64,000 nucleotides of DNA from positions 1 through 64,000 of the forward strand of contig CALDTV010000013.1 in NCBI GenBank assembly GCA_937923625.1, written 5' to 3'. Numbering within the stretch: the first letter of the stretch is position 1; each line of letters starts with the position of its first letter. This DNA is from an uncultured Alphaproteobacteria bacterium (GTDB taxonomy: Bacteria > Pseudomonadota > Alphaproteobacteria > Micavibrionales > Micavibrionaceae). Below, one piece after another: positions 24,948-26,293 of this stretch. A model generated the notes under the pieces. It did no database searches. It saw only the letters and a program-made list of their open reading frames with translations, and had not been told where the DNA came from. The translations under genes and the position numbers were made by a program.

Positions 24948-26285
24948 CTATGAAAAAAGATCAAGAATGTTTGATTGGCTGCTTAAGGATAATGCTGTTG
25001 TTTGTATCTGTTGTCTTGTTTGAAGGCTCAATAGTTCAGCGCCATTTTGATTTTGATTGGCAAGAGTTAAGTCGTCTGATCCAGCGCTCAGCGTGTTAAT
25101 ATTTTGTTCAATAAAATCACGGCGCGTTGTTATGATGGTTAAATCATTTTGTAAGCTGGCGCTGTAATCTCTCAATGTCTCACGGGCATCGCGCAGCTCA
25201 TCAAGAATTTTAGTCATCTCGACCTTACTAATAAAATTGTCATTATCTAGCCCTAAGCCTAATGCACTGGTATCGATTCCTTGTGTTGTTAAGCTATGTT
25301 GGTTTTCTTGATTAAAGGTTGTTTCAAGGTCATCTTCTTTTAAAAGCTGTATGCCTCTATAGCTGGCATCAGTAGAGATATCTTCCATTTGGCTAAGAAC
25401 TTCTAGATAGCGCTCTCTATATTCAACGCTATCGCTAGACACGTTAATATCGGGATTATCAATGAGCAGGTCGCCGCCCCATTCAATGATGTAATTTAAA
25501 TTTCTATTCTCAGGAAGATCATTCCAGAATCCATCGGATCGCATATGCGCATAATTTTCTGGGTCTGCTGCGCCAAAAAATTGGTTAGGCTCACCTGGTG
25601 CCCAATTTGTATAAGCGCCGTTGACAGAACTTCCAGCCACAAGGCCTTGCCAGAATTGCTCTCCTTCTTCTGCCCCTTCAACCCATCGCCATTCTCCCTC
25701 AACGGCTTCGTCACTACCGCCCAGCCAGCTACTTGATGTTAGCAATGCTTGAACAAAATCATTTTCTTCTTGGGATGTAATCGTGGCTAAGTGTCCAGTC
25801 AGCTCTGGCACGCCGTCTAAACCTGCTTGCGCGGCTGTGGCGCTTGCGTCCTCCCACGAAGCGAAGTCTGTTGTGTTTTGATAGAAGTTATTTGTGGCGG
25901 CAAAATAAGCCTTGTCGGGGTTTCTATATAAAATATATTGAATTGCGCGTGCATCAGGCGTTTCATCGGTGCGGGGGAAAAGCTCTGTTAAGCCATCCTC
26001 AACTAATTGCTCTGCTGTATCAATAAGTTTGAGCATGGTTTCAACCCCTATATTCGCTTCTTGTATTGCACGGATACTGGTACCTATATGGTTTAGGTTA
26101 CGGTCTAAATCATTGGCTTTATTAATAAGGCTTTTGCTAGCGAAGTAATTTTGGGGATTATCTAAAGCCGAATTAACGCGCTTGCCAGAGGCAAGAGCCA
26201 ATTGCATGCGATCAATGTTGCGATTTGTTTGCTCCATAGAAAACAAAACATTGCGCTGAACAGAAGATAAGACATTGTTTATCAT
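24948..26285 (-). CDS. Flagellin with an inserted C-type-lectin-like domain
   Basis: 445 aa. Residues 1-105 match the flagellin N-terminus (coiled D0/D1 helices; LASGKRVNSALDNPQNYF at 31-48), and 285-445 match the rest of an alphaproteobacterial flagellin (ASYRGIQLL at 307-315; SLQTRQQIQTTALSLSSQ at 420-437). Between them, about 115-270, lies a C-type-lectin-like fold: GHLATI 164-169, WLGGSD 187-192, NWAPGEPN 227-234, WNDLP 254-258, YIIEWG 265-270. Cysteines are absent. EPN and WND are the calcium and sugar ligand motifs of lectins of this fold. The insertion falls at the turn between the two N-terminal D1 helices, not at the usual variable D2/D3 site. The ribosome binding site is AAGG. No other flagellar gene is nearby. 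Confidence 0.92.
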   Translation of the reverse strand: MINNVLSSVQRNVLFSMEQTNRNIDRMQLALASGKRVNSALDNPQNYFASKSLINKANDLDRNLNHIGTSIRAIQEANIGVETMLKLIDTAEQLVEDGLTELFPRTDETPDARAIQYILYRNPDKAYFAATNNFYQNTTDFASWEDASATAAQAGLDGVPELTGHLATITSQEENDFVQALLTSSSWLGGSDEAVEGEWRWVEGAEEGEQFWQGLVAGSSVNGAYTNWAPGEPNQFFGAADPENYAHMRSDGFWNDLPENRNLNYIIEWGGDLLIDNPDINVSSDSVEYRERYLEVLSQMEDISTDASYRGIQLLKEDDLETTFNQENQHSLTTQGIDTSALGLGLDNDNFISKVEMTKILDELRDARETLRDYSASLQNDLTIITTRRDFIEQNINTLSAGSDDLTLANQNQNGAELLSLQTRQQIQTTALSLSSQSNILDLFS

Positions 26286-26293
26286 AACCTTTT

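Follow-up and report, generated by a model that had tools for sequence, protein, structure and literature searches.

Can a flagellin carry a whole C-type lectin-like domain (CTLD) among its N-terminal helices, and what would such a domain do on a filament? The question is raised by a single gene in the window, the stretch of 64,000 nucleotides analysed here, which comes from an uncultured alphaproteobacterium of the family Micavibrionaceae. An earlier note, made by inspection of the letters, had described intact flagellin ends around a lectin-like fold and had suggested that filaments could thereby display a calcium-dependent sugar-binding surface.

The gene and its predicted protein

The CTLD-flagellin gene lies on the minus strand (24948..26285) and runs from ATG to TAG; its translation gives a protein of 445 amino acids (aa), while the plus strand over the same positions is full of stops. 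A putative ribosome-binding-site-like AAAAGG, read from the sequence, is found immediately upstream of the ATG (26288..26293, minus strand). The neighbouring dnaE-like and rpsB-like genes, named by eye from their translations, are both on the other strand, and the gene stands alone.

Only two Pfam families passed their cut-offs, Flagellin_N at residues 11-96 (E 1.8e-7; 31.7 bits against a cut-off of 26.6) and Lectin_C (PF00059) at residues 163-266 (E 4.4e-9; 37.5 bits against 22.6), and a metallopeptidase domain of the flagellinolysin type was absent. The domain search proposed in the earlier note was borne out for these two families and failed for Flagellin_C, which had no match in the protein at E ≤ 1. 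When solved structures were searched by sequence, residues 293-444 matched Caulobacter flagellins (6xl0, E 7.3e-7) and residues 163-269 matched C-type lectin CRDs, namely those of CLEC10A, CD23 and aggrecan. At E ≤ 1, four NCBIfam families were matched, every one of them named flagellin and none FlgL, for which the library presumably contains a model. The best of them, PRK12688 (E 2.3e-43) and PRK14708 (E 7.8e-41), were each matched in two stretches with the better stretch in the C half, at scores far under their full-length cut-offs.

The structure was predicted with AlphaFold from an alignment that combined the window protein with seven relatives built in the same way, one of them truncated, and with 30 rows holding a CTLD only, and the resulting model had a mean pLDDT of 84, with 14 of the 15 ten-residue blocks over residues 121-270 above 90. 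In the model, the N part (residues 1-105; 25971..26285, minus strand as for all features below) holds the ND0 and ND1a helices at 8-33 and 44-102, and is followed by a linker with a short helix at 112-121 (residues 106-125; 25911..25970), the lectin fold (residues 126-270; 25476..25910) and a return linker of low confidence (residues 271-281; 25443..25475; pLDDT below 50 at 275-281). Then come the ND1b helix (residues 282-306; 25368..25442), the D1 beta-hairpin (residues 320-334; 25284..25328), which is the usual place of the hypervariable region and carries no domain here, and the C-terminal CD1/CD0 helix (residues 354-436; 24978..25226). Because the model gives this order of helix, lectin and helix, it places the lectin domain between helices N-D1a and N-D1b, in agreement with the earlier note.

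Using VIA-align on the predicted model, the flagellin core was aligned to the Caulobacter FljK filament subunit 8uxj with a Z of 19.2 (262 residues, 5.2 Å), a deviation that we take as bending of the long helices. The lectin part fitted its closest CRDs at 1.0-1.2 Å over 115-125 residues, including 2ox9 (1.2 Å, 125 residues) and 1kza, mannose-binding protein C with mannoside (1.0 Å, 115 residues). Foldseek returned 296 matches, and all 50 listed are C-type lectin domains (6py1, E 4.4e-9). A distant copy, L041, which is 44% identical to the window protein, models alike (pLDDT 87). The motifs that had been pointed out are all present (GHLATI 164-169, WLGGSD 187-192, GEPN 231-234, WND 254-256, YIIEWG 265-270 and ASYRGIQLL 307-315), and the intact flagellin ends were recovered by the searches and by the model of the protein alone, as were the lectin match and the lectin fold, whose joint absence the note had named as grounds for giving up the idea. 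Overall, we confirmed that the combination of flagellin and C-type lectin is real and above chance.

The loop between N-D1a and N-D1b and its inserts

The insertion site had also been called unusual, which held in one respect: it departs from the hypervariable region between N-D1b and C-D1 that is described for Shewanella flagellins in the consulted part of PMC11839096. As regards the window's own clade, the claim was incomplete, because the same slot is occupied, by 145-325 aa, in every one of 100 other flagellins examined from the order. These 100 comprise 99 flagellins from the matches listed in the order-wide search and one from the window genome, two being from another family of the order; a further 17 listed flagellin rows (hand count), several of them at contig ends or with stops, were left out. 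The inserts are Flagellin_IN-like in 65 cases, LamG in 21, an unnamed domain of roughly 170 aa in 12 and glycine-rich in two. The underlying grouping by single-linkage similarity gave one family of 64, LamG sets of 20 and one, the 12 unnamed, the two glycine-rich and one short insert; the Flagellin_IN label of the 64 rests on the Pfam test of one member (L001, from the window genome), and the short insert (L213) was added to them by eye and from its place in the core tree. A Pfam scan of 24 other inserts found Laminin_G_3 in 21 and Gly_rich_2 in two, the latter being those of L157 and L197. The unnamed inserts (L126-L129, L139, L145, L158, L159, L170, L172, L177 and L182) are 40-52% identical to that of L127; their best Pfam match across the 12 members had an E of 0.017, no solved structure was matched at E ≤ 1, and NCBIfam gave nothing better than E 0.27 for three members.

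Among other Alphaproteobacteria, both ends could be placed in 20 flagellins (L252-L280). Inserts of 95-372 aa occupy the slot in 17 of them, and the three short ones, which serve as a method control, gave -3, an empty slot; both filled and empty ones had been picked by similarity. Since other Alphaproteobacteria use the slot too and the short controls are empty, the slot is wider than the Micavibrionaceae, and it is normal in this clade though unusual compared to textbook flagellins. The same may hold for flagellins encoded in large genomes (f177; 759-837 aa), whose N ends lie outside the stretches read. It is the lectin kind of domain, not its position, that is the special feature of the window flagellin.

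The other flagellins that the earlier note had advised looking for were found in the window genome, which holds five Flagellin_N genes: that of the CTLD-flagellin and four others of 552, 533, 531 and 380 aa (lengths stop to stop). The 552-aa protein carries Flagellin_IN, the 533- and 531-aa proteins carry Laminin_G_3, and the 380-aa protein (L002) is FlgL-like by its full Flagellin_N match. In the search for relatives, the paralogs matched residues 5-102 and 282-444 of the window protein in one frame, with other sequence between. With three other flagellins in the genome, and given that bacteria with several flagellins often put minor ones at one end, the CTLD-flagellin could be a minor subunit found only at the hook-proximal end or the tip of the filament, where it would serve local contact. 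We consider this very unlikely, and an identity as FlgL in particular is improbable in view of the NCBIfam matches, which name flagellins only, and of the separate FlgL-like protein.

Evidence on whether filled slots are compatible with motility comes from M. aeruginosavorus ARL-13 (G070), which has three Flagellin_N genes with frames of 575, 588 and 351 aa. Both the 575- and the 588-aa flagellin carry a slot insert, and the 351-aa protein matches Flagellin_N over its full length and is FlgL-like. Micavibrio are described, in the part of the literature consulted, as motile by means of one polar flagellum that has no sheath. Because both long ARL-13 flagellins carry inserts and Micavibrio are motile, a functional filament can seemingly be built from flagellins with a filled slot, provided that motility does not depend on a flagellin that escaped the search; the inserts in question are Flagellin_IN-like, not CTLDs.

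Conservation, distribution and origin of the lectin module

Five putative ligand positions were identified in the lectin domain. Two of them flank the proline of the EPN motif (E232-P233-N234; 25584..25592), the third is E243 (25557..25559), which aligns with the Glu of the CD23 'GED', and the fourth and fifth lie in the WND motif (W254-N255-D256; 25518..25526). E232, N234, E243, N255 and D256, which from the CRD literature we take to be the Ca2+/sugar ligand positions of sugar-binding CRDs, with EPN presumably being the mannose-type motif, are invariant in all seven intact copies (the window protein and six others); in 38 rows, which include CTLDs of several phyla, each is either invariant or conserved to at least 90%. 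Calcium-dependent sugar display for attachment, as the earlier note had suggested, is plausible and is backed by these conserved positions.

The lectin domain evolves slower than the flagellin core. Among the seven intact copies, 51 of 145 columns are invariant in the CTLD, compared to 24 of 105 in the N part and 25 of 164 in the C part. The window protein and L042 are 84% identical in the CTLD (64% in the N part, 67% in the C part), the window protein and L037 80% (62% and 57%), and in the remaining four comparisons with the window protein the CTLD identity is likewise above that of the core. The amino-acid-changing distance between window and L042 (NG86) is 0.11 for the CTLD, 0.28 for the N part and 0.35 for the C part, and for the CTLD the two pairs that allowed a calculation of dN/dS gave about 0.05-0.09, their synonymous sites being close to saturated. 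This pattern bears on the idea that the protein is a filament subunit whose CTLD is just a structural outer domain, adding bulk, stiffness or masking without binding sugar. Loss of sugar binding is common among CTLD folds, and the fold matches include a type II antifreeze protein that does not depend on calcium. In the main flagellins the slot holds Flagellin_IN-like domains, which have no ligand known to us. The five ligand positions, invariant in the intact copies and held across the 38 rows, and the stronger constraint on the CTLD than on the core both argue against a purely structural domain, and we regard this idea as improbable.

Cysteine is absent from the seven intact copies, from the L039 piece and from the 100 other flagellins. 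Animal CTLDs carry conserved disulfides, a feature that the window CTLD lacks. The absence of cysteine suits export through the flagellum, yet it is not special to the CTLD-flagellin, because other bacterial CTLDs compared here usually do without cysteine as well (all eight flagellin CTLDs, 20 of 20 other CTLDs of the family and 23 of 28 further CTLDs).

The full architecture occurs in eight of 104 Micavibrionaceae genomes, four of them among the ten of the window's genus and four across three other genera, so that the gene must be dispensable. Six of the seven copies outside the window genome are intact and 44-72% identical to the window protein; the seventh, in G009 (L039), is broken by a frameshift and a stop (L039:6960-7010) adjoining a short T run, which is either real decay or an assembly error. 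That the fusion as such is an assembly chimera or a decaying gene, to which this one broken copy of eight could point, is almost certainly wrong, since seven intact copies under constraint come from separate assemblies. The CTLD-flagellin gene is the single Lectin_C match in the window genome. Order-wide (142 genomes), a full-length match was found in the same eight genomes only, among the best matches listed. In a class-wide sample, four of 385 genomes matched at E ≤ 1e-45, all of them Micavibrionaceae, and in a phylum-wide sample 19 of 398 genomes matched at E ≤ 1e-25, the listed matches outside the window genome covering the C half of the flagellin only. A search of the named genome collection gave 197 relatives, of which 80 were kept; seven of these 80 loci join flagellin to CTLD, all of them from records labelled Micavibrio, Micavibrionaceae or Alphaproteobacteria/Pseudomonadota. 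No CTLD flagellin was found outside the Micavibrionaceae among the sampled genomes and the matches listed. Two loci from Opitutia/Opitutae (L111 and L114) were considered and taken as chance, with N-part E values of 0.02 and 0.04 and no C part. A phage origin was also considered: no relative was confirmed in viral contigs, and PHROGs gave no match at E ≤ 0.001.

A quick tree of 107 cores placed the Flagellin_IN-like main flagellins in one group and 16 LamG flagellins in another, while a third group of 25 contained 11 flagellins with the unnamed insert, seven with a CTLD, five with LamG and two with glycine-rich inserts. This mixed group looks like module exchange in the slot, with long branches flagged and the details unsure. 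In the CTLD tree, a supported branch separates group A (window, L042, L037, L038 and L039) from group B (L040, L041 and L043), and the window CTLD is not nested among the CTLDs of the family. RTX proteins of the same family were considered as donors of the CTLD, which is unsupported for group A, as this group falls with the CTLDs of other phyla. The CTLD flagellins occupy two places in the core tree, which takes two changes, of which the well-supported branches alone force one; one clade of flagellin CTLDs was not rejected by an AU test (p 0.10). The CTLD was perhaps captured more than once.

The regions around the genes were compared as well. The neighbourhoods of the CTLD-flagellin copies differ, with no synteny seen by eye, so that a flagellar role finds no support in operon context. 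Upstream regions were scored against sigma-54 and sigma-28 motifs, in the consensus forms assumed by us, with 40 mononucleotide shuffles per upstream. Neither the window gene nor the four other group-A copies scored above their best shuffle (L038 tied for sigma-28 and L039 for sigma-54). The three group-B copies have sigma-54-like sites of 11, 10 and 10 of 11, compared to shuffled maxima of 8-9, all starting at most 93 bp from the start codon. The LamG flagellin L217 of the window genome has such a site of 10 (shuffled maximum 9), and none of seven main-flagellin upstreams exceeded its own shuffles. The main flagellin genes share a 5' leader, CCTAG[G/T]AAAGGA, in 12 of 13 upstreams compared (L130, L132, L136-L138, L140-L144 and L146-L148), L137 having one extra base; it is possibly a regulatory element, and it is missing from the window CTLD-flagellin gene. 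Neither seven main-flagellin loci nor the locus of the window gene had an Rfam match at the gathering score.

These observations are relevant to the possibility that the protein never joins a filament and instead leaves through flagellar export as a secreted or cell-surface homolog, acting as a free lectin or matrix adhesin. By eye, branches are longer in the accessory clade, to which the CTLD proteins belong, than in the main flagellin clade, as if the constraint of assembly were relaxed, and neither neighbourhood nor leader is common to the CTLD-flagellin and the main flagellin. Secreted flagellin homologs (FHPs) of Vibrio, according to the consulted part of PMC6692518, behave in this way and bind exopolysaccharide. 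We nevertheless consider such a secreted role unlikely, given that neither the D0/D1 helices nor the C half shows damage and that both can be aligned to filament structures. The sigma-54-like sites in all three group-B copies also speak against it, if weakly, as no main-flagellin upstream exceeded its shuffles. In other Alphaproteobacteria, sigma-54 sites are of the flagellar type.

Proposed role and comparison with known systems

We propose that the protein is probably an accessory filament subunit whose N-D1a/N-D1b loop displays a putative calcium-dependent glycan-binding CTLD, perhaps for recognition of prey or surfaces. It would be exported unfolded and free of cysteine via the flagellar secretion system, and its intact D0/D1 helices would allow co-assembly with the main flagellin. 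The lectin domain would then fold outside the cell and bind Ca2+ at the EPN/E/ND site, so that a mannose-type (EPN) glycan-binding surface would be repeated along part of the filament, which could provide a weak multivalent grip on glycans carried by prey or exposed on other surfaces. In the Micavibrionaceae the loop is a site of general use for display, and different outer domains (Flagellin_IN-like, LamG, CTLD and others) look to have been exchanged in it.

The suggested role in prey recognition draws on the known predator of the family, on the expression of flagellar genes in the attack phase and on a report of carbohydrate receptors; the window organism may itself be a predator, judging by its family. 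In the consulted literature, expression of flagellar genes is raised during the attack phase, and the consulted part of PMC3189940 cites an early study that implicated carbohydrate receptors in the interaction of Micavibrio with its prey, and a later one calling for further work on them. A broader version, which we put forward only tentatively, is a modular 'glycan-reading' flagellum with a plug-in loop, in which a Flagellin_IN-like main flagellin is accompanied by accessory flagellins with exchangeable lectin-type modules (CTLD, LamG and the ~170-aa domain), the CTLD perhaps being captured repeatedly, and the mixed filament reads the glycans of prey or surfaces during swimming. If sugars are bound on the assembled filament, the swimming organelle would be a multivalent lectin too, which would offer a molecular candidate for the early report of carbohydrate receptors in the contact between Micavibrio and prey. 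The loop would also be a second insertion site of flagellins, natural, repeatedly used for whole domains and seemingly compatible with motility, which bears on filament evolution and on where filaments tolerate cargo.

Several known systems share part of this arrangement. In sequence, no solved structures come nearer to the core than the Caulobacter FljK-type flagellins (8uxj, 6xl0), which also rank among its best structural matches; their chains of 270-273 residues lack a comparable domain. Long alphaproteobacterial flagellins, the kin of PRK12688 and PRK14708, have a similar C half and the same slot filled, with no CTLD among the sampled genomes outside the Micavibrionaceae. The fold matches of the model (VIA-align) include 3k8v, which we take to be the alginate-binding cell-surface flagellin p5 of Sphingomonas. 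The Vibrio FHPs are likewise flagellin-fold proteins tied to polysaccharide, and a separate lectin domain is not mentioned in the consulted part of PMC6692518. The RTX proteins of Micavibrio contain CTLD kin within the same family, but they are large, carry type I secretion signals and are not flagellins, according to the consulted part of PMC3189940; one of them, GMV2456 of ARL-13 (1238 aa, with a lectin domain), probably corresponds by its length to the 1244-codon frame of G070. The RTX protein L033 (G031) combines calcium-binding repeats with Laminin_G_3 and Lectin_C, module types that are also found in the flagellin slot.

Functional domains in flagellins are already known. A survey in the consulted part of PMC5595980 counted 61 types of domain within the hypervariable regions of flagellins, with neither Lectin_C nor LamG in its printed top ten, in which 'Sialidase' is tenth. 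Among the papers listed in searches of the open-licence full-text literature (PMC), none joined a flagellin to a C-type lectin or LamG, and none described an exchange of domains across a family in the N-D1a/N-D1b loop; both may be in print elsewhere. The nearest precedent is flagellinolysin, the metallopeptidase-containing flagellin FliA(H) of Clostridium haemolyticum (Eckhard et al. 2017, PMC5595980, consulted in part). Both proteins hold a foreign functional domain between flagellin ends, would present it on the filament, and have conserved functional residues that argue for its use, whereas the domain of flagellinolysin lies in the central hypervariable region and the lectin of the CTLD-flagellin in the N-D1a/N-D1b loop.
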